Assembly: GCA_012729055.1 (NCBI GenBank)
Contig: JAAYDW010000044.1
Location: forward strand, 1-36,102
Length of the DNA: 36,102 bases
DNA from: Deltaproteobacteria bacterium
GTDB taxonomy: Bacteria > Desulfobacterota > Syntrophia > Syntrophales > Smithellaceae
Reading direction: 5' to 3'
Part shown: positions 1,870 through 10,912 of the stretch, piece after piece
Layout: each line of letters begins with the position of its first letter
Position numbering within the stretch: the first letter of the stretch is position 1
Made by a program: the position numbers and the translations under genes
Notes under the pieces: model-generated
What the model saw: the letters and a program-made list of their open reading frames with translations, nothing else
Database searches by the model: none
What the model was told of the DNA's origin: nothing

Positions 1870-3252
1870 TCACGATGTCCGGCCGTTTTCGTACTTTTCC
1901 AGCTTCTTGCGCAGGGTTTTACGGGTGATGCCCAGGCGGCGGGCGGCCTCGCTTTTGTTGCCGCCGACCGCGGCCAGCGCCTCCAGAATGCTTCTTTTTT
2001 CCACTTCTTCAAGCGACAATCCCGCCCCGGCGGCGACGTCGCCCGCACCCCAAGTACCGGCGGGAGGCTCCGCCTGTTCCGCCATCGGAAACACCAGATC
2101 CTCCGCGTCGATCACAGCGCCCCGCGCCATCACGACGGCCCGTTCCACGGCGTTCATCAGTTCCCGGACGTTGCCGGGCCAGGAATACTGTCCGAGTTTG
2201 ACGAGCGCCCGCGGCGTGAAGCCGGAAAGGATCCTCGCGTTTCGTTCGGCAAATGTCGCAAGAAACTGCTGCGCCATGAGCGGAATGTCCTCGGCTCGTT
2301 CCCGCAGGGGCGGCACGGTCAGCGCGACGACGTTGAGACGGTAAAACAGGTCTTCCCGAAAGCGTCCCTCCCGAATCTCCTTTTTCAAGTCCTTGTTGGA
2401 GGCGGCTATCACGCGGACGTCGACCTGGACGACTTCCGAGCCGCCCACGCGCGTAAGTTCCCGCTCCTGGAGCACCCGCAAAAGCTTGACCTGCATGGCG
2501 GGAGACATTTCGCTCACTTCGTCGAGAAAAAGGCTGCCGGTGTCCGCCTGGACGAACTTGCCTTCCCGGCGGCGGTCCGCGCCGGTAAACGCGCCTTTTT
2601 CGTGGCCGAAGAGCTCCGATTCCAGGAGCGTCTCGGCGAGCGCCGCACAGTTGATCTTGATGAACGGCGCGGCGGCGCGGTTGCTGTTGGCGTGGATGGC
2701 GTTGGCGATCACTTCCTTGCCCGTGCCGGATTCGCCGGTAATAAGAACGGTCGCCTGGGTCGCGGCCACCTGCTCGACCATTTCCAGAAGCCGCACCATG
2801 GCGGGGCTCTGCCCGATAATGTTCTGACGGTCGAATTTCTCGCCGAGCCTCTGCTTCAGGTATTCGTTTTCTTTTTTCAGCAGGGAATGCTCGGTGGTCC
2901 TGGCGATCGCGAGCTGCAGTTCGTCAAAATCCAGCGGCTTGGTGAGGTAATCGTACGCGCCTTTTTTCAGCGCGCGGACGGCCGTCTCCACCGACGCATA
3001 GGCGGTCATGATGATCACCGGAATCGCCGGTGCGATCTTCTTGATCTGCTCCAGGGCCTCGATGCCCGAAACCTTCACCATGCGGATGTCCATCAGGATC
3101 ACGTCAAAAGACCGCCGGCGGACCTCATCGATCGCCGTCGCGCCGTCGTCCGCCTCGAAAACGGCATATCCCCAGCCGCCGATGAGTTTTTTCAACATCA
3201 GCCGATGGGCCGCGTCGTCATCCACAATCAGAACTTCCCCTGCATTTTTCAT
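1870..3252 (-). CDS. zraR: Sigma54-dependent response regulator, ZraR/AtoC-like
   Basis: A three-domain NtrC-family activator of 460 residues. The N-terminal receiver has acidic residues D11-D13, phospho-acceptor D55 in the ILMDIRM strand and a conserved lysine in LTKPLD. The central AAA+ domain has Walker A GESGTGKE and the GAFTGA loop that contacts RpoN. The C-terminus ends in a Fis-type helix-turn-helix (KSEAARRLGITRKTLRKK). When phosphorylated it should activate RpoN promoters, and a consensus one precedes the ZraP-like gene at 5077. Its start overlaps the kinase stop by ATGA, so the two are translationally coupled. The symbol rests on the ZraP-like neighbour; AtoC or HydG names would fit the protein alone. 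Confidence 0.9.
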   Translation of the reverse strand: MKNAGEVLIVDDDAAHRLMLKKLIGGWGYAVFEADDGATAIDEVRRRSFDVILMDIRMVKVSGIEALEQIKKIAPAIPVIIMTAYASVETAVRALKKGAYDYLTKPLDFDELQLAIARTTEHSLLKKENEYLKQRLGEKFDRQNIIGQSPAMVRLLEMVEQVAATQATVLITGESGTGKEVIANAIHANSNRAAAPFIKINCAALAETLLESELFGHEKGAFTGADRRREGKFVQADTGSLFLDEVSEMSPAMQVKLLRVLQERELTRVGGSEVVQVDVRVIAASNKDLKKEIREGRFREDLFYRLNVVALTVPPLRERAEDIPLMAQQFLATFAERNARILSGFTPRALVKLGQYSWPGNVRELMNAVERAVVMARGAVIDAEDLVFPMAEQAEPPAGTWGAGDVAAGAGLSLEEVEKRSILEALAAVGGNKSEAARRLGITRKTLRKKLEKYENGRTS

Positions 3253-4934
3253 TTTTCCACCTGACCGTCTGCCGTTAAAACAAAACGCAGCGTCACGGTC
3301 GTGCCCGCGCCGCGCGTACTTTCCACAAGAATTTTAGCGCCGTGCGCATCCATGATTTTTTGCGCCACGGCCAGCCCCAAGCCTGTGCCCGCCGGTTTGG
3401 AGGTAAAGTACGGATCGTAAATCCGCGGCAAATCCTCCTCACGAATGCCTTCGCCCGTGTCGGACACCGCTACATCCAGAAAACCGTCCTGCGCCGCCAG
3501 TTGAACGGAGAGCCTGCCGCCGCCGGGCATCGCCGCCAGGGCGTTGAGCAGGAGATTGAGCAGGACCTGCTTGATTTTGTCCGGATCGATCTCCGGATCG
3601 GGCAGCGGCTCCCGGACCCGCACGTCCACAGCCACGGCCTGCTTCTTCGCGTCTGCCTCCACCAGCCGGACGGTCTGCCGCGCCAGGTCCGCAAGAAGGG
3701 TTCGCTCCTTTTTCAACTGCAGCGGGCGGGCAAATTCGATGAGCTGGCTGATCACCCGGTTGAGCCGGTCCGTTTCGGCAATCATGATTTCCGCCGTTTC
3801 CTCGTCCTCGGCATTGCCGGCCAGCCGCTGCTTGAAATACACGGCAAAGCCCTTGATGGAACTGAGCGGATTGCGGATTTCATGCGCCACGCCGGCGGCG
3901 AGCGATCCGATGGCGTTCAGGTGGCGGCTGTGCGCGACTTCCCGCTCCATCTGGCGGAGGGCCGTCACGTTGCGGGCCAACAGCATCCTGCCCTCGTGCG
4001 CGTCTTCATCGGCAAAGAACGCCGCCGCCACTTCCCAGGTTTGGTTCGGCTCTTTGGCGGACGAAACAAAGACCTCCTTTTCCACCGGCGCGCTTTGCGC
4101 CGCAAGCCCCTCCAGAATCTGCAAAAACGGCTGACGGAGCGCCAGAGCGGCCTTCTTTCCGATCGCCTCGGCGCAGCCGGAGACGATGAGCGGCTGGGCC
4201 GGCTCATTGCAGGCGACCACTTCGCCTTCCTTATCCACCGCGAGCAGCGCGATGGGCATGTTTTTCACCAGGGCCTCCGAAAATACGGTCAGCCGGGACA
4301 GGGAGGACTGCGCCAAACGGTACGCCTGCACGAGAAACAGGGATACGATGGCCAGCGACCCGACGAGTGCCAGCACAAGCGCCATCAGCAGTGTCTGGAG
4401 CGTATCCTCCCGCGTGGCTTTTTCGATCTTCTCCATGTTGAAACCGACGAAAACCGCCAGGGAATGCGTCTTTCCCGCCAGAGGAGAAAAGCCCCGATAG
4501 ACCTCAAACGTATCTGCCCCTTCGGGATTGGCGGCCTGACGCCAGCGAAGCTCCCGGCTCGCGGCGATCTTTTGCACATCCAGATCCAGTCCGTAAGGCC
4601 GCCCCAGCATGCTGGGATCGCTGTCGGCCAGGATGTTCCCCTCGCCGTCCGTCACGATCATGTAGTCGATGTCCGGCTGTTTGGCGACTTCCATAAGCAG
4701 GGTTTGGAAATCGAACATCGTTTCCTCGCTTCGTAACCGGCAGCGCAACCCCGCTTCAAACGAGGAAATCAATGTCGCGCCTTTTTCGATAAAAAGCGTC
4801 TCCGCCTGAGTCTTGCGCTGCGAAAACTGCATGACCATCATCAGGCCCAGGATTCCGGCCAGCACCACAATCGCGCTTGCCGCAAGCCAGACGGAAATGC
4901 GCCGGCGGATTTTCTTCCTTTTCTTTTGCTGCAT
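3249..4934 (-). CDS. zraS: Membrane sensor histidine kinase, ZraS-like
   Basis: A 561-residue inner-membrane kinase. Transmembrane helices lie at about 13-36 and 181-206 and flank a periplasmic sensor of about 145 residues with a Cache/PAS-like look (IVTDGEGNILADSD at 93-106). A cytoplasmic PAS-like region (about 215-330) precedes the HisKA domain with phospho-acceptor H351 in AHEIRNPLSS, and the HATPase domain has N- and G-boxes (LLNLLLNAL, DTGEGI, GTGLGLAV). A strong ribosome site AGGAGGAACC precedes the ATG. It is operonic with the downstream regulator and divergent from the ZraP-like gene, the same arrangement as enterobacterial zraSR/zraP. The signal sensed (zinc, lead or envelope damage) cannot be read from the sequence. 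Confidence 0.9.
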   Translation of the reverse strand: MQQKKRKKIRRRISVWLAASAIVVLAGILGLMMVMQFSQRKTQAETLFIEKGATLISSFEAGLRCRLRSEETMFDFQTLLMEVAKQPDIDYMIVTDGEGNILADSDPSMLGRPYGLDLDVQKIAASRELRWRQAANPEGADTFEVYRGFSPLAGKTHSLAVFVGFNMEKIEKATREDTLQTLLMALVLALVGSLAIVSLFLVQAYRLAQSSLSRLTVFSEALVKNMPIALLAVDKEGEVVACNEPAQPLIVSGCAEAIGKKAALALRQPFLQILEGLAAQSAPVEKEVFVSSAKEPNQTWEVAAAFFADEDAHEGRMLLARNVTALRQMEREVAHSRHLNAIGSLAAGVAHEIRNPLSSIKGFAVYFKQRLAGNAEDEETAEIMIAETDRLNRVISQLIEFARPLQLKKERTLLADLARQTVRLVEADAKKQAVAVDVRVREPLPDPEIDPDKIKQVLLNLLLNALAAMPGGGRLSVQLAAQDGFLDVAVSDTGEGIREEDLPRIYDPYFTSKPAGTGLGLAVAQKIMDAHGAKILVESTRGAGTTVTLRFVLTADGQVEK

Positions 4935-4975
4935 GGTTCCTCCTGATACTCCCTGGATACTATCGAACCATTCGG

Positions 4976-5015
4976 TTACGGAAATCGGGTACCAATTATC
5001 CGCTCGCTACCGGTA
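4976..5015. promoter_or_regulatory. Candidate upstream activator sites
   Basis: Two short palindromes, GGTACC (4988-4993) and TACCGGTA (5008-5015), sit about 62-90 bp upstream of the -24 element. A TTACGG (4976) to CCGGTAA (5010) dyad overlaps them. The spacing suits enhancer sites for the adjacent NtrC-family regulator. An A/T-rich stretch with a near match to an IHF site (around 5049-5061) lies between them and the promoter. This is inference from position only. Confidence 0.3.
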
Positions 5016-5076
5016 AATGGCAAATCAAATTTCGTAAAATTTTAAAAATATCAATAATTACGGATAATTAAAATAA

Positions 5077-5092
5077 TGGCACGGGCATTGCT
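5077..5092 (+). promoter_or_regulatory. Sigma54 (RpoN) promoter of the ZraP-like gene
   Basis: TGGCACGGGCATTGCT matches the sigma54 consensus TGGCACG-N4-TTGC(T/A) at every conserved position, with GG at 5078-5079 (-24) and GC at 5090-5091 (-12). Transcription would start near 5103, leaving a leader of about 37 nt. The ribosome site AAGGAG (5127-5132) is 7 nt before the ATG. The divergent regulator carries the GAFTGA RpoN-contact loop, so the circuit is self-contained. Confidence 0.92.
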
Positions 5093-5139
5093 TTGATGAA
5101 AGGCAACTGATCAGAAATAAATATAGAAGGAGATGTACC

Positions 5140-5634
5140 ATGAAAAAATTCACCTTAACAGTAACAGCCGTTGTGGCAGGCTTGCTTTTAGCGACTTCAG
5201 CCTTCGCCTGGGGTCCCGGTCCCGGCAAGGGAAGAGGCTATTGCCAGGGGGCAGGTCTGGAAAGACTTAATTTGACGGACGATCAAAAAGCGAAAATCGA
5301 TGCGCTGCAGACGGAGCATGCAAAAGCCGTACAGCCGCTGCGCGAAAAGACATTCGACAAGGCGGTGGAGCTGCGCCGGTTGTGGCAGCAGACCAATCCC
5401 GACAAGGACAAGATCACGGCCGCGCAAAAGGAATTGAGAACGCTGCGCAACGAAATGGAAGACAAGGCGACGGCTTACAAGCTGGAAGTCCGCAAGGTCC
5501 TGACACCGGAACAAAATGAAAAACTGGCCGCCTTCGGCTGGGGTCCCCGGTCCGGTTTCGGTCCCCGCGGCGGCATGAGAGGCGCCGGACCGCAGGGAGG
5601 CGGACCGGGCTACGGAAGGGGATTTTGCCGATAG
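5140..5634 (+). CDS. zraP: Periplasmic ZraP/Spy-like stress protein
   Basis: A 164-residue exported protein. The signal peptide ends at AFA (residue 23) before WGPGPG. The mature part holds an LTxxQ-type segment (LNLTDDQKAKIDAL, about 43-56) and long charged helices typical of the Spy/CpxP/ZraP chaperone family (metal-binding, anti-aggregation). The C-terminal 35 residues are rich in Gly, Arg and Pro. There is one Cys near each end of the mature protein (C35 in GYCQG, C163 in GFCR), which may bind metal or link subunits. It is driven by the RpoN promoter at 5077 and followed by a strong terminator. Family membership is clear from layout and motif; the zinc link is inferred from the flanking two-component pair. 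Confidence 0.85.
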   Translation: MKKFTLTVTAVVAGLLLATSAFAWGPGPGKGRGYCQGAGLERLNLTDDQKAKIDALQTEHAKAVQPLREKTFDKAVELRRLWQQTNPDKDKITAAQKELRTLRNEMEDKATAYKLEVRKVLTPEQNEKLAAFGWGPRSGFGPRGGMRGAGPQGGGPGYGRGFCR

Positions 5635-5662
5635 TCAACGAATCAGTGCCTCCTTTCAAAAA

Positions 5663-5691
5663 GGGGGAGCCTCCGGCTCCCTCTTTTTTTT
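5663..5691 (+). terminator. Rho-independent terminator after the ZraP-like gene
   Basis: A 9-bp stem (5663-5671 with 5675-5683, one G-U pair) closes a TCC loop and is followed by eight T. It isolates the ZraP-like gene from the leucine leader promoter just downstream. Confidence 0.92.
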
Positions 5692-5705
5692 GATGAAAAA
5701 AACTT

Positions 5706-5734
5706 TTGACAAGCGTCGCCTTTTGCATTAAAGA
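5706..5734 (+). promoter_or_regulatory. Sigma70-type promoter of the leu operon
   Basis: A perfect -35 TTGACA (5706-5711) lies 17 bp from a weak -10, TAAAGA (5729-5734). Transcription would begin near 5741, about 33 nt before the leader peptide. The -10 choice is uncertain because the region is A/T-rich. Confidence 0.6.
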
Positions 5735-5773
5735 GAACGACACTTTGGTTTTGGTTTTAAAAGGATAGTTTAC

Positions 5774-5893
5774 ATGTTCAGTTTTACGGCAACGACGATT
5801 TCTGCATGCGCGCTTCTGACCCTGCTTCTGGGCCTCGCGTTGTTGCGCCTGTTACTTAAGGCCGCCTGCCCGTCGTTTTTAGGTCGTCACTGA
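5774..5893 (+). CDS. leuL: Leucine-rich leader peptide of the leu operon
   Basis: This 39-codon reading frame starts at ATG 5774, with AAAAGGA (5759-5765) 8 nt upstream. It contains 12 leucines, 11 of them in codons 14-28 (LLTLLLGLALLRLLL), using several Leu codons including two TTG and one TTA. It ends at TGA 5891-5893, just before a terminator hairpin and 103 bp before leuA. This is the layout of classic leucine attenuators: when charged tRNA-Leu is scarce the ribosome stalls in the leucine run, an antiterminator forms downstream and leuACDB is transcribed. The peptide itself probably has no other function. It has a hydrophobic stretch that could look like a membrane helix, but its position argues for a control role. 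Confidence 0.85.
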   Translation: MFSFTATTISACALLTLLLGLALLRLLLKAACPSFLGRH

Positions 5894-5935
5894 ACGTAAA
5901 GCATAACTGATTACCTGAAAAAGGCCGTGGGCGGC
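5861..5935 (+). promoter_or_regulatory. Antiterminator of the leu attenuator
   Basis: Bases 5861-5884 can pair with 5913-5935. GCCGCC pairs with GGCGGC, then T-G, G-T and C-G pairs follow. Two C-G pairs can form across a small bulge, then TTTTT pairs with AAAAA (5918-5922) and AGGT with ACCT (5913-5916) past one bulged G. This long stem would occupy the whole 5' arm of the terminator. Its left half begins 4 nt after the last leucine codon of the run, so a ribosome stalled earlier leaves it free. A ribosome resting at the stop codon would cover it. Confidence 0.7.
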
Positions 5936-5953
5936 AAATCCCACGGCCTTTTT
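5918..5953 (+). terminator. Attenuator terminator before leuA
   Basis: A perfect 9-bp GC-rich stem, GGCCGTGGG (5923-5931) with CCCACGGCC (5940-5948), is extended by A5/T5 and has an 8-nt loop. The T5 run (5949-5953) completes an intrinsic terminator. It lies 43 bp upstream of the leuA start and downstream of the leucine leader peptide, so it is regulatory rather than an end-of-gene signal. Confidence 0.92.
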
Positions 5954-5996
5954 CGTTTTGAAAAGTATTTTTGAAATACGGCAAAAGGAGCCCTTT

Positions 5997-7547
5997 ATGA
6001 AAAAAGATAAAAACCGCGTTTACATTTTCGACACGTCGCTGCGCGACGGAGAGCAGTCGCCCGGCAACAGCATGAACACGGAGGAAAAGCTGCTTCTGGC
6101 CCGGCAGCTCGAAAACCTCGGCGTGGACATCATCGAGGCCGGGTTTCCCATTGCCTCGGAGGGGGATTTTGACGCGGTCCGGCAGATTTCGCGCGTCATT
6201 CGGAAATCCCAGGTGGCGGGCCTGGCCCGCGCCAACAAAGCGGACATCGACCGCGCCTGGCAGGCCATCAAGGGCGCGGCGCATCCGCGCATCCATACCT
6301 TCATTTCGTCTTCGGACATCCACCTGAAATACCAGCTCAAGAAGAGCCGGGCGCAGGTGCTTGACGAAGCGGTCGCGGCCGTCCGGCTGGCGAAATCCTG
6401 CACAGACAACGTGGAGTTCTCGCCGATGGACGCCACGCGCTCGGACCGCGACTATCTCGTGCAGATGGTCGCGGCCGTCATCGACGCGGGCGCAATCGCC
6501 GTCAATATTCCGGACACGGTCGGCTACGCCGTTCCCGAGGAATTCGGCGACCTCATCGCCTATCTTTTCGCCAACGTTAAAAACATCGACCGGGCGATTC
6601 TCTCCGTCCACTGCCACAACGATCTGGGACTGGCGGTGGCCAACTCGCTGGCCGCCATCCGCGCGGGCGCGCGCCAGGTGGAATGCACGATCAACGGCAT
6701 CGGCGAGCGGGCGGGCAACACGGCCATGGAGGAAATCGTCATGGCGCTCGCCACGCGCAAGGATCTGTACGGCCTGTACACCAAAATCAAAACTGAGCAG
6801 ATTTACAAGACGTCCCGGCTCCTCACGCAGATCACCGGCATTGCGGTGCAGCCCAACAAGGCCATCGTCGGGACCAACGCTTTTGCGCATGAATCCGGCA
6901 TCCACCAGGACGGCCTGATCAAGGAAAAGATCACCTACGAGATCATGACGCCGAAATCCGTCGGCATCAGCGATACCCACATTGTCCTGGGCAAGCATTC
7001 CGGACGCGCCGCCATAGCGCACCATTTGAAAAAAATGGGCTACGAGCTAAGCGAGGAGCAGCTCAGCCGGGTGGCGGCCAAGGTCAAGGAACTGGCCGAC
7101 ATCAAAAAGGACATCTACGACGAGGATCTGCAGGCGATTATTTACGAAGACGTTTACCGCGGCGAAGAAAAGTACAACCTGATCTACCTCAATGTCGTAA
7201 GCGGCAACGTCGCCATTCCGACGGCCACCATGGAAATGAAAGTCGGCGCGGAAGTCGTGCGCGACGCCGGCTTCGGCAACGGCCCGGTGGACGCCACGTT
7301 TGCGGCCATCCGCAACATCACCAAGACCAACTACCCGCTTCTGAAATACGCGGTGAACGCCATCACCGGCGGTTCGGACGCCCAGGGCGAGACGATGGTC
7401 CAGCTCAAGTACAACGGGCACACGGTGGTGGGCCGCGGCGCGCATCCCGACGTCATCGTCGCGTCGGCCAAGGCTTACATCAACGCGCTCAACCGGCTGG
7501 AGTTTCTGAAAAGCAACGTCAAGAAGGTAAAAGTTGAATTAAGCTGA
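5997..7547 (+). CDS. leuA: 2-isopropylmalate synthase
   Basis: LeuA condenses acetyl-CoA with 2-oxoisovalerate in the first committed step of leucine synthesis. The 516-residue length fits the long form with a C-terminal leucine-sensing domain. The HMGL-like TIM barrel shows [12 protein letters not shown] near the N-terminus (catalytic Arg and metal Asp), the metal-binding [13 protein letters not shown] segment and a GERAGN motif. The C-terminal third (after about residue 395) is the regulatory domain, so feedback inhibition by leucine is expected in addition to attenuation. I chose ATG 5997 over an in-frame TTG at 5958 because AAAAGGAG (5983-5990) sits 6 nt before it and the TTG lies beside the attenuator terminator. 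Confidence 0.96.
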
Positions 7548-7614
7548 AAAATAGGTTAATGACAGCGTCTCATTTTAAAATTAAAGCGCTTTGGCCAGGC
7601 AAGGAGTTTACAAC

Positions 7615-8874
7615 GTGGGATATACGATAACGGAAAAAATTTTAATGGCGCATACGGATCTCAAGGACATCGCGCCGGGGCAGCTCATCAACGCCCGGGT
7701 CGATATCGCGCTCGGCAACGACATCACCGCGCCCATCGCCATCCGTGAGTTCCGCGCGGCCGGCGGAAAAGAGGTTTTCGACCGGGACCGCGTGGCGCTG
7801 GTCCTCGATCACTTTACGCCGAACAAGGACATCAATTCCGCCCAGCAGTGCAAAACCGTCCGCGAATTCGCCTTCGAACACGGCATCACGCATTTTTACG
7901 AAGGCGGCCAGGTGGGCGTCGAGCACGCGCTTTTGCCTGAAAAAGGCATCGTCCTGCCCGGCGACCTGGTGATCGGCGCGGACAGCCACACCTGCACGTA
8001 TGGCGCCCTGGGCGCCTTCGCCACGGGCGTGGGCAGCACGGATCTCGCGGCCGCCATGCTCACGGGCGAATTGTGGTTCAAGGTGCCGCAGTCGATCAAG
8101 TTCGTCATTTACGGAAAGCTGCAAAAATGGGTTTCCGGAAAGGACCTGATTCTGAACATCATCGGACGCATCGGCGTGGACGGCGCCCTTTATCAGGCGA
8201 TGGAGTTCACCGGGGAAACGGTCGCGGCGCTTCCGATGGCGGATCGCCTGTCCATGGCCAACATGGCCATCGAGGCGGGCGCGAAAAACGGCATTTTCCC
8301 GCCCGACGCCGTCACCGAGGAATACGTCAGCCCCCGCGCCGGCAGGCCTTACACGCTTTACGCCTCCGATCCCGACGCCGTTTACGCCAAGACCATTGAA
8401 ATCGACGCGGGCGCCCTCGAGCCGCAGGTGGCCTTCCCGCATCTGCCCTCCAACGTCCGGGGCGTAAGCGAAGCCGGCCGCGTGAAGATCGACCAGTCGC
8501 TCATCGGCTCGTGTACCAACGGCCGGATCGAGGATTTGCGCATCGCCGCCGGAATTTTGAAAAACCGCAAAGCCTCGCCCAGCGTCCGCCTGATCGTCGT
8601 TCCGGCGACGCCGCTCATTTACCGGCAGGCGATGCACGAAGGCCTGCTCGACATTTTCATGGACGCCAACGCGGTCATCTCGCCGCCCTCCTGCGGCGCG
8701 TGTCTGGGCGGCCATCTGGGCATTCTGGCCGACGGCGAAACGTCCATCGCCACGACCAACCGCAATTTCGTGGGACGCATGGGCCATCCCAACAGCGAAG
8801 TGTATCTGGCCAGCCCCGCCGTGGCCGCGGCGTCCGCCGTTTTGGGCCGGATTGCGTCTCCTGAAGAATTATAA
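7615..8874 (+). CDS. leuC: 3-isopropylmalate dehydratase large subunit
   Basis: With LeuD this aconitase-family subunit isomerises 2- to 3-isopropylmalate using a labile [4Fe-4S] cluster. The three cluster cysteines are C300 (GSCTNGR), C360 and C363 (SCGACLGG). At 419 residues it belongs to the shorter HacA-type branch common in anaerobes and archaea rather than the roughly 465-residue enterobacterial form. I chose the GTG at 7615 because AAGGAG (7601-7606) is 8 nt upstream; an in-frame TTG at 7591 lies upstream of that ribosome site. It follows leuA by 67 bp and precedes leuD by 20 bp. Confidence 0.95.
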
Positions 8875-8894: not shown

Positions 8895-9386
8895 ATGATT
8901 TTTAAAGGAAACGTCTGGAAGTTCGGCGACAACATCGATACCGACGCCATCATTCCCGCGCGCTATCTGAACACGTCGGATCCCGCCCAGCTCGCCCGCC
9001 ACTGCATGGAAGACGCGGACCCGGACTTCGTCAACAAGATGAAGCCCGGCGATATCATCGTCGGCGGCGAGAATTTCGGCTGCGGCTCGTCGCGCGAGCA
9101 TGCGCCGATCGCCATCAAGGCCGCCGGCATCTCCTGCGTCGTGGCCAAAAGCTTTGCGCGCATTTTTTACCGCAACGCCTTCAACATGGGGCTGCCGATC
9201 TTCGAATCCGCCGCCCTTGCCGACGCGATCGCCGCAGGCGAGGAAATCGCCATCGACAGCGCCGGAGGAACCATCACGGTTTCCGGCTCCGGCCGGACCT
9301 TCACCATCAGCCCTATCCCCCCCTTTATGGAAGAGCTCATCGCCGACGGGGGGCTGATGCGGCATATCGCCAAAAACAGAAAATGA
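8895..9386 (+). CDS. leuD: 3-isopropylmalate dehydratase small subunit
   Basis: The 163-residue swivel-domain partner of LeuC. It opens with [20 protein letters not shown], the hallmark of the LeuD/HacB small subunits, and has the substrate-recognition [15 protein letters not shown] segment at about 57-71. Its length again matches the HacB-type branch, in agreement with the HacA-type LeuC. It sits inside the leu operon, 7 bp before leuB. Confidence 0.95.
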
Positions 9387-9393
9387 GGAATCC

Positions 9394-10488
9394 ATGAGCG
9401 CCAAAGGTTATCGCATCGCCGTTTTTGCCGGCGACGGCATCGGCCCGGAAATTATGAAGGAAGCCCTGAAGGTTTTAACGAGCGTCGCCGATCGCTCTGC
9501 CGTCGAGCTGCAGCTGACCCACGGGCTTCTCGGCGGCAGCGCCTACGACGCCTGCGGCACGCCCTTTCCCGAGGAAAGCCTGAAGCTCGCCCTGGAAAGC
9601 GACGCGGTTTTGCTGGGCGCCGTGGGCGGACCGAAATGGGAGGGCCTCGACTACAGCGTCCGCCCCGAACGGGCGCTTTTGGGCCTGCGCGAAAAACTGG
9701 GCCTCTTTGCCAATCTGCGGCCGGTGGTCGTTTTCGATGAGCTGGTGGATGCGTCCCCGCTCAAACCGGAGCTGGTGAAAGGCATCGATATTCTTATTCT
9801 GCGGGAGCTGACCGGCGACGTCTATTTCGGCCGGCCCCGCGGCGTGACCCGCGACGCGGAAGGAAAACGCACCGGCGTCAACACGATGATTTACACGGAA
9901 GAGGAAATCCGCCGCATCGCGAGGCGGGCCTTTGAACTCGCCCGCGGGCGGAGAAAAAAACTCCTGTCCGTGGACAAGGCCAACGTTCTGGAAACCACCG
10001 AACTGTGGCGCAACGTGGTTACGGAAACCGGCCGCGACTATCCCGACGTGGCGCTCGGCCACATGTACGTGGACAACTGCGCCATGCAGCTCGTGCGCCA
10101 TCCGGCGCAGTTTGACGTCATCGTGACCACCAACCTGTTCGGCGACATCCTGAGCGACGAAGCAGCCATGCTCACCGGCTCGATCGGCATGCTTCCCTCC
10201 GCTTCACTGGGCGCGGATCACGCGCTCTACGAACCGATTCACGGCTCGGCGCCGGACATCGCGGGAAAAAACATCGCCAACCCCCTGGCCACGATCTTGT
10301 CGGTCGCCATGCTGCTGCGGCATTCGCTCGACCTGCCTGACGCGGCGGCCGCCGTGGAAAAAGCGGTCGCGGACGTTTTAAAGGACGGCTGGCGCACCCA
10401 GGATATTTATTCGCCGGGCGGCCGTCTCGCCGGCACGGCGGAAATGGGCGACGCCGTTTTGAAAAAACTCATTTCCCCGGACCGCTAA
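9394..10488 (+). CDS. leuB: 3-isopropylmalate dehydrogenase
   Basis: This NAD-dependent enzyme oxidises 3-isopropylmalate, which decarboxylates to 2-oxoisocaproate. The 364 residues carry the family start ([13 protein letters not shown]), the substrate arginines in the [21 protein letters not shown] stretch, the [10 protein letters not shown] segment with its catalytic Lys, the metal-binding [12 protein letters not shown] motif, and the nucleotide-binding [15 protein letters not shown] loop. It is the last biosynthetic gene of the leuACDB operon, with the ribosome site AGGAA just before the ATG. Confidence 0.96.
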
Positions 10489-10510: not shown

Positions 10511-10912
10511 GTGAAAGGAAAAATTCTCGTCGTGGATGATGAAGCATCGGTGCGCGAATTGTTTTCCGCCGTTTTCGCCGATGAAGATTACGAAGTCATC
10601 GCCGCCGAAGACGGCAAATCGGCGCTGGATATTCTCCAGAAGGACGACATTGACGTCATTTTTCTCGATCTCAAGCTCTTCGGCATGAACGGCATCGACC
10701 TGTGCCGCCAGATCCGCGAAAGCAAGCCCGTCTCCATGATTCTCGCGATCACCGGCTGGGCGCCTCTGTTTGAAATCGAGGAATGCCGCGAAGCGGGCTT
10801 CGACGATTATTTCGAAAAGCCGCTCGACATGGACATCCTGCTCGACGTCGTGGAGGATGCGTTTAAGAAACTGGACCGGTGGAAGAGGCGCTACAGCAAT
10901 CTTTCCAGGTAA
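10511..10912 (+). CDS. Single-domain response regulator (CheY-like)
   Basis: A 133-residue receiver with no output domain. Visible features are the acidic pair D9-D10, phospho-acceptor D53 (DVIFLDLKL), the threonine in AITGW and the lysine in FEKPLD. The GTG start at 10511 has AAAGGAGA 7 nt upstream. It begins 22 bp after leuB and is probably co-transcribed with the leu operon, which is an unusual place for a receiver. Its partner kinase and target are unknown. It could act as a phosphate shuttle or by protein-protein contact. Confidence 0.9.
   Translation: MKGKILVVDDEASVRELFSAVFADEDYEVIAAEDGKSALDILQKDDIDVIFLDLKLFGMNGIDLCRQIRESKPVSMILAITGWAPLFEIEECREAGFDDYFEKPLDMDILLDVVEDAFKKLDRWKRRYSNLSR

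Follow-up and report, generated by a model that had tools for sequence, protein, structure and literature searches.

A predicted leucine attenuator family of the Syntrophales stands ahead of leuA and of a 2-oxoacid:ferredoxin oxidoreductase operon

The leuACDB operon of a bacterium of the family Smithellaceae is preceded by what is very probably a ribosome-mediated leucine transcription attenuator, and comparison with related genomes places this element in an apparently conserved RNA family across the order Syntrophales. We analysed positions 1-36,102 of contig JAAYDW010000044.1 (Deltaproteobacteria bacterium), the whole of which is called the window below; the region under study is 5706-5996. 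The elements of the switch, the covariation of its alternative helices, the independence of its conserved RNA from reading frame, the placement of the leader stop codon and the two kinds of downstream target, leuA and a 2-oxoacid:ferredoxin oxidoreductase operon, are all read from sequence. Leaders that read one conserved RNA in three frames are a natural test of constraint, in which the RNA is kept and not the peptide. The second target links an unassigned oxidoreductase to leucine supply and yields a prediction for syntrophs that show no leuA, possibly the formation of leucine from isovalerate. A first-pass annotation had recognized the attenuator itself and overlooked the order-wide family, the second target operon and a possible partner of the antiterminator left arm near the leader start.

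Results

The element and the leu operon

The features of the region are collected in Table 1. The TTGACA hexamer claimed as a promoter by the first-pass annotation is present, 17 nt from a TAAAGA hexamer, and a similar arrangement recurs upstream in relatives. TTGAC[AG] lies upstream of 44 of 46 leuA-type sites, as against 62 of 580 coding control windows, with one of the 44 (G025) matching inside the leader and not at promoter distance; the hexamer 17 nt further on starts with TA in 41 of the 44. Promoter-like hexamers precede the leader at no fewer than 43 of the 46 sites. At the sites of the second set (n = 55, comprising 49 directly ahead of oxidoreductase genes and 6 unassigned matches), TTGAC[AG] is found upstream of 51, two of them inside the leader. 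A strict consensus promoter scan of the window, which requires a final T in the second hexamer, called no promoter.

The leader ORF follows a Shine-Dalgarno-like AAGGA (5761-5765) and encodes MFSFTATTISACALLTLLLGLALLRLLLKAACPSFLGRH followed by a stop. Its 39 codons read as had been claimed, with 11 leucines among codons 14-28, a density of 11 Leu per 15 codons that was never attained when the bases of the ORF were shuffled 20,000 times. The terminator, described earlier as perfect, indeed forms 14 Watson-Crick pairs (5918-5931 with 5940-5953). The competing pairing of 5861-5884 with 5913-5935 also stands, and gains three further pairs at 5886-5888/5909-5911; the cognate antiterminator duplex amounts to -32.7 kcal/mol. 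Folding places the stop codon in the antiterminator loop, where the first-pass annotation had put it. As hairpins, the antiterminator (-31.8 kcal/mol) and the terminator (-27.9 kcal/mol) are mutually exclusive, and when the left arm is masked, a check that had been proposed, only the terminator remains. The fold of the whole leader has a z-score of -2.35, with 2 of 200 shuffles equally stable. Only two sites in the 3.36-Mb assembly match the terminator pattern GGCCRTGG(N2-14)CCAYGGCCTTT, this one and another ahead of a DAHP-synthase operon, on which ground we rejected a generic terminator of the organism.

Profile matches agree with the reading of the operon as leuACDB with a HacA-type LeuC. 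Judged by LeuA, the closest named genomes are MAGs of Smithella and other Syntrophaceae/Smithellaceae, in keeping with the earlier guess of a likely deltaproteobacterium. A single-domain response-regulator ORF (10511-10912) lies immediately 3′ of leuB. Upstream of the leu operon, within 3249-5634 of the window, is a ZraS-like sensor kinase gene on the minus strand; a small ZraP/CpxP-like protein is encoded at 5140-5634 (below curated cut-offs), and a terminator-like hairpin, seen by eye, then follows at about 5661-5692.

Table 1. Features of the leader region and of the leu operon, in window numbering.
Feature	Position	Strand	Details
Promoter (predicted)	5706-5734	+	-35 TTGACA 5706-5711, 17-nt spacer, -10 TAAAGA 5729-5734, read from sequence
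Leader ORF	5774-5893	+	39 codons; Leu codons 14-28 at 5813-5857; stop TGA 5891-5893
Segment 1 (candidate)	5774-5797	+	start region of the leader; can pair with segment 2 and around the stop codon
Segment 2, antiterminator left arm	5861-5888	+	core GCCCGTCGTTTTTAGG 5868-5883, within the leader ORF
Segment 3, antiterminator right arm	5909-5935	+	includes the terminator 5′ arm
Intrinsic terminator, segments 3:4	5918-5953	+	14 bp, 8-nt loop, U-run 5949-5953
leuA, 2-isopropylmalate synthase	5997-7547	+	NF002086 and TIGR00973 over cut-off; Shine-Dalgarno AAGGAG 5985-5990
leuC, HacA-family large subunit	7591-8874	+	TIGR02083 and TIGR01343 over cut-off
leuD	8895-9386	+	TIGR02084 232.7 bits (cut-off 245.85, missed); TIGR02087 205 (cut-off 108.95)
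leuB	9394-10488	+	TIGR00169 over cut-off

Proposed mechanism and folding

In the mechanism that we propose, RNA polymerase begins at about 5740 and the leader is translated. A shortage of charged Leu-tRNA would stall the ribosome in the leucine codons and leave segment 2 free to pair with segment 3, so that the terminator would be blocked and leuACDB transcribed. With ample leucine, the ribosome would reach the stop codon and cover segment 2; the terminator would then form and transcription would end before leuA. Pairing of segment 1 with segment 2, possible in many members, perhaps favours termination if no ribosome initiates. We infer the stalling, the transcriptional outcome, the response to leucine and the role of segment 1.

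Folds of the window leader with the polymerase at 5936 give 24.0, 24.5 and 19.5 expected antiterminator pairs when the leader is free from 5829, 5859 and 5868, respectively, and zero when everything to 5903 is covered. Across the sites that could be placed (44 of 46 leuA and 49 of 55 second-set sites), a free segment 2 forms on average 20.0 and 18.8 antiterminator pairs; the loss of the antiterminator with a ribosome at the stop is by construction in this multi-site fold, where the arm is masked. Without a ribosome, the window fold still gives 23.0 expected antiterminator pairs, so that, by the fold alone, an untranslated leader might default to either outcome. For the complete window transcript with a stalled ribosome, equilibrium yields 2.6-5.9 antiterminator pairs versus 14.9-15.3 terminator pairs, and the terminator is dominant in every state. 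The antiterminator would thus have to act kinetically, by forming first.

Before the right arm exists, the left arm is mostly held by upstream RNA (mean 11.2 expected pairs per 16 nt), and ribosome loading alone could act on such an arrangement. The antiterminator might then sense translation in general, through the presence or speed of ribosomes, with the leucine run merely a slow stretch. We consider this very improbable given which codons are repeated. The 46 leuA-type leaders average 7.7 Leu per 15 codons (minimum 3), versus 0.9 in other frames, and all 55 second-set leaders average 7.05; in both site sets the leader frame was taken as the one with most Leu, which pushes these counts upward. 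Look-alike leaders ahead of aromatic and ilv genes, described below, are instead rich in Phe/Tyr/Trp or Val/Ile.

Conservation at leuA loci and in the class

LeuA or a paralogue is present in 58 of 59 genomes searched. The first-pass annotation had proposed looking in orthologous regions for the Leu-rich frame and both stems, and leader, motif and terminator indeed stand ahead of leuA in 46 of 48 loci examined, the window's included; fragmentary leuA copies lacking a start (for example in G017 and G046) were excluded from the 48. The two remaining loci were excluded before the 46 were aligned. One of them, in G035, has leuA without the element upstream. In the other (L013, contig 267 of G018), a group II intron (Rfam RF00029, RF01998) lies directly upstream of leuA and reaches the contig end. 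A match to R1, a covariance model built from leuA elements only, is found at the end of another G018 contig, so that the intron may separate the attenuator from leuA.

Covariation, likewise suggested for checking in the antiterminator, is seen in the 46-row alignment for both the terminator and the antiterminator. In the terminator, 95.5% of 552 cells are paired, as against at most 68.5% in slid versions, and 19 cells are double-changed, a number reached in 0 of 500 shuffles and compared with 0-9 in slid versions. The antiterminator has 84.8% of 919 cells paired versus 38-57% when slid, with 25 double-changed cells (0 of 500 shuffles; slid versions 9-19). The number of antiterminator pairs with a double change, 9, is not above the slid versions (6-10) and is attained by 18 of 500 shuffles. 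Six inner antiterminator pairs are each broken in 12-17 of the 46 rows, partly through misalignment, MAFFT having moved one right-arm base in several distant rows. Duplexes of cognate arms average -25.7 kcal/mol versus -22.9 kcal/mol for arms from different families, and among 14 family representatives 10 of 20,000 permutations are as good as the cognate combination. At 24 of the 46 sites, the antiterminator duplex does not reach the strength of the top 1% of pooled mononucleotide-shuffled controls.

The left arm of the antiterminator appears to be conserved as RNA and not as peptide, since leaders read its core, GCCCGTCGTTTTTAGG, in three frames. It is read as PSFLG-like in 42 of 46 leuA leaders and in a second, PPVVF-like frame in the other 4, while the 49 oxidoreductase leaders read it as PPVVFR-like (38), as ARRF followed by a stop (10) or as PSFLG-like (1); the 6 unassigned R1 sites have the motif in the PPVVFR frame. 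At 39 of 46 leuA sites the stop codon follows the motif by 7 nt, and at the remaining seven the offset is -5 (2), 0 (2), 3, 6 and 55; in 48 of 49 oxidoreductase leaders the offset lies within -4 to +12 nt (G117, where the motif call is poor, has +36). Because the stop stays near the motif in any frame, a finishing ribosome would cover the left arm in nearly all members, which is the requirement of an antiterminator blocked by a finishing ribosome. Conservation of segment 2 at the RNA level would follow from its need to pair with segment 3 and, in many members, perhaps with segment 1. From leader stop to terminator, 39 of 43 leuA sites measured have 21-24 nt. Between terminator and leuA, about a dozen relatives carry a palindromic repeat, seen by eye, that lengthens the gap (L007, L008, L010, L011, L014, L016, L022, L027, L028, L030, L031, L032, L047); its forms are GAGGCTCCAAT...ATTGG...AAGCCGAACAACCCCGC or GGGATAATTCGACTAACCAATTT...GAGTCTCA, with variants.

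At E <= 0.001, R1 has matches in 137 of 155 class genomes, including 91 of the 109 outside the model, and no match in 18 of the 155. It scores 137.4 bits on the window (E 1.8e-35), by construction, the window being in its alignment. Among the 150 matches listed, and with an adjacency limit of 700 nt, at least 94 immediately precede leuA (92 genomes, 20-405 nt; in G003 and G005 leuA was positioned from fragments) and at least 49 immediately precede the oxidoreductase gamma gene (49 genomes, 14-256 nt). That places 143 of these 150 directly ahead of one or the other and 7 elsewhere, five of the latter being oxidoreductase-type leaders, and 28 genomes have sites of both types among the matches listed. 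Of 80 named leuA loci, many of them from the same genomes as in R1, 59 have an R1 match upstream of leuA and 21 have none; the misses are loci starting inside leuA, the intron case, distant groups and a few Syntrophales. A search of the window's own genome gave 19 matches at E <= 10, the upper ones of which were inspected, and those on contigs C35 and C70 look by eye to be inside coding sequence.

These data also bear on the ORF as the gene of a small membrane protein with its own ordinary terminator, leuA being unregulated. Codons 11-28 of the peptide do appear hydrophobic by eye, and a perfect terminator follows. We rejected this reading, which is very unlikely: the C-terminal part of the peptide shifts frame between members while the RNA stays constant, the N-terminal residues differ between genera, both alternative helices covary, and the R1 matches listed lie, with the exceptions counted above, just before leuA or the oxidoreductase operon.

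A possible further pairing of segment 2 with the leader start

The left arm of the antiterminator can also pair with the start region of the leader in about half of the members tested. In the window, AUGUUCAGU (5774-5782) is able to pair with 5889-5897, and AACGACG (5791-5797) with 5871-5877. Three such pairings recur: many families could join CCUGAAAAUGAC to GUCGUUUUUAGG, other genera of the window's family AAAAACGAUG to CAUCGUUUUU, and the window's genus AUGUUCAGU to ACUGAACGU. Their mean energy is -14.5 over 44 of the 46 leuA sites and -16.0 over 51 of the 55 second-set sites, as against -9.3 to -10.8 in the controls (two windows and shuffles); leader starts were chosen with a simple rule based on purine runs, which has probably misplaced some of them. 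At 20 of 44 leuA and 27 of 51 second-set sites, no more than 5 of 100 shuffles are as strong.

At leuA sites, the cognate pairing is matched by 0 of 20,000 permutations among 18 genus representatives and by 9 of 20,000 among 12 family representatives; the preference is weak in the second set (498 and 1,258 of 20,000). The window's own pairing is modest, with 7 of 100 shuffles as strong, and in most genomes of its genus a stretch further into the leader pairs better with segment 2. If no ribosome initiates, segment 1 may shield segment 2. The pairing might also explain the C.C mismatch retained in many antiterminators, since those bases would lie opposite the start codon in the alternative pairing.

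A second target operon

The second target encodes a four-subunit, porGDAB-type 2-oxoacid:ferredoxin oxidoreductase in the order gamma, ferredoxin-like subunit, alpha, beta. For the pyruvate/2-ketoisovalerate family TIGR02175, the gamma subunit scores over the cut-off, and in the profile search the gamma and alpha subunits fell below every equivalog cut-off shown. At E <= 1e-60, 72 of 155 genomes have the gamma gene, none of them among the 20 of the window's genus; 24 of 73 gamma genes have no R1 match among the matches listed. In the 15 codons that precede the motif, the 49 leaders at the attenuated loci (L158-L164, L166-L175, L177, L192-L222) have about 7 Leu on average (3-10, counted in the best frame), with at least 5 in 48 of them and only 3 in G036.

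Among the matches listed, at least 17 genomes have an attenuated oxidoreductase operon and no leuA at E <= 1e-100, eight of which are at least 98% complete (G037, G039, G043, G056, G057, G142, G150 and G153). In the four that were checked (G037, G039, G043 and G057), the protein most like LeuA is a citramalate synthase, which exceeds the cut-off of TIGR00977 and falls far short of those for LeuA. LeuC is found at E < 1e-100 in 13 of the 17 genomes and a LeuB homologue at E <= 1e-60 in 12, seven of these being close homologues. In G039 and G057, the LeuC/LeuB homologues adjoin the citramalate synthase gene, which fits isoleucine synthesis.

The attenuator would switch the operon on when charged Leu-tRNA is short, so that the enzyme should make leucine and not degrade it. 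We infer an oxidoreductase under leucine-starvation control that forms leucine's 2-oxoacid by reductive carboxylation, its substrate and direction included. More specifically, it could be a leucine-biosynthetic 2-oxoisocaproate synthase that carboxylates isovaleryl-CoA, with the sign of the switch giving the direction, and serve as the main leucine route in leuA-less Syntrophales; we hold this proposal tentatively, at a little less than an even chance. Such a synthase would fit above all the genomes without leuA. Possible alternatives are a pyruvate synthase under leucine control, an enzyme for some other 2-oxoacid, or uptake as the actual source of leucine in these genomes.

Operon context was also considered as a guide to the substrate. 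In 13 oxidoreductase neighbourhoods, the operon stands alone; 12 of the 13 have a Kdo-transferase gene no more than about 8 kb away (one confirmed by Pfam), and these neighbourhoods gave no settled substrate. An acyl-CoA dehydrogenase gene in 3 of the 13 and an AMP-binding acyl-CoA ligase gene in 2, further off and on the other strand, are suggestive at most. Carboxylation of isovalerate followed by amination is given as a leucine source in rumen microbes in the excerpt consulted of PMC7356843, which cites Allison et al. (1962, 1966). That route shares the making of leucine by carboxylating isovalerate and would explain an attenuator before an oxidoreductase. It is cited for rumen microbes, and our literature search, over titles and the beginnings of abstracts, found no gene or regulation that ties it to the oxidoreductase operon and no description of a leucine-controlled oxidoreductase.

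Look-alike attenuators

Across 395 genomes of the phylum, R1 has a match at E <= 0.01 in 133, many of them weak, and eleven of the best matches outside the class were read individually. Leu leaders stand ahead of leuA at L241 and L244 and ahead of a nitronate-monooxygenase-family gene at L248 and L252 (Pfam for L248), and the Leu-rich leaders at L242 and L243 are followed by no gene that could be named. The remaining five comprise a Phe/Tyr leader ahead of DAHP synthase (L246, Pfam), a Trp/Phe leader ahead of aroK-aroC (L250 and L251, by eye), a Tyr/Phe-rich frame ahead of an aldolase-like gene (L247, by eye) and an Ile-rich leader (L249). Similar terminators go with the leaders at L242, L243 and L246-L252.

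The window's own genome holds two more candidates. At L178 (G000:C113:34700-37700), a Phe/Tyr/Trp-rich leader, MNRQIDANTPFFGYWFYYEVASVCLTLGRTW followed by a stop, and two tandem CCATGG hairpins stand ahead of genes for DAHP synthase (Pfam) and then dehydroquinate-synthase-like and chorismate-mutase-like proteins (by eye), making this a candidate aromatic amino-acid attenuator. At L181 (G000:C34:73200-76000), a Val/Ile/Leu-rich leader ending in MLRKNLDIGRILNPAIVRLLGVVVVRRGPAG and a stop, and then a terminator, stand ahead of an ilvB-ilvN-like pair (by eye) as a candidate branched-chain attenuator. The sequences suggest that one attenuator frame may be re-used with different codons, or that these systems may have converged on the same hairpin.

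Discussion

Leucine control by a tRNA- or metabolite-binding RNA (a T-box or riboswitch), with the ORF incidental, has a precedent in the T-boxes reported for Geobacter, another delta-proteobacterial lineage, in the excerpt consulted of PMC3766115, yet we rejected it as extremely improbable in view of the covariance-model searches, in which the window gave no T-box or riboswitch match at gathering score, none of the 8 Rfam matches with E up to 1 in 5640-6010 is of that kind, T-box RF00230 has no match in the window (gathering score; E up to 1) or in eight further loci (gathering score), and because the leaders are Leu-rich at both site types, which a tRNA-binding RNA would not need.

The literature search, over titles and abstract beginnings, returned no description of the element; papers on proteobacterial attenuators (Vitreschak 2004, Lopatovskaya 2010) may hold part of it. 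The excerpts consulted of PMC2965389, PMC4833913 and PMC545781 make no mention of a delta-proteobacterial leuA attenuator. Within the literature thus covered, the novelty lies in an order-wide family whose RNA is conserved irrespective of frame and, above all, in the oxidoreductase as a target. The family of leucine attenuators is fully specified, and it belongs to a phylum on which the same literature says little.

Leucine attenuation itself is of a known kind. The enterobacterial leuABCD attenuator (RF00512) has a leader peptide with a leucine run, an intrinsic terminator and a mutually exclusive antiterminator ahead of leuA, and the present element is alike in each of these. It differs in having 11 Leu spread over codons 14-28 and an antiterminator left arm inside the leader ORF, with a conserved 16-nt RNA motif, as well as in the leuACDB order, the HacA-type LeuC and the second target operon in relatives. 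The window has no match to RF00512 at gathering score or at E up to 1, and on the basis of the lack of an Rfam match an origin independent of the enterobacterial attenuator seems plausible. The lack of such a match fits with a suggestion, in the same excerpt of PMC3766115, that the Rfam amino-acid attenuators may have arisen in gamma-proteobacteria, the Geobacter T-box lineage being outside that analysis.

Two further systems can be compared from the excerpts consulted. The leucine-rich ilv-leu attenuator peptide of Staphylococcus aureus (PMC5794164) shares Leu-dependent leader-peptide attenuation and alternative terminator and antiterminator structures. It differs in using Ile and Leu codons, in standing ahead of ilvD and in an antiterminator that sequesters the poly-U tail, and its terminator lies 52 nt past the leader stop, well beyond the spacing found here at most leuA sites. 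The actinobacterial LEU element (PMC1262725) likewise stands ahead of leuA; it is a candidate pseudoknot whose base stem joins leucine codons with the Shine-Dalgarno box of leuA, whereas the element described here would act as a terminator/antiterminator switch.
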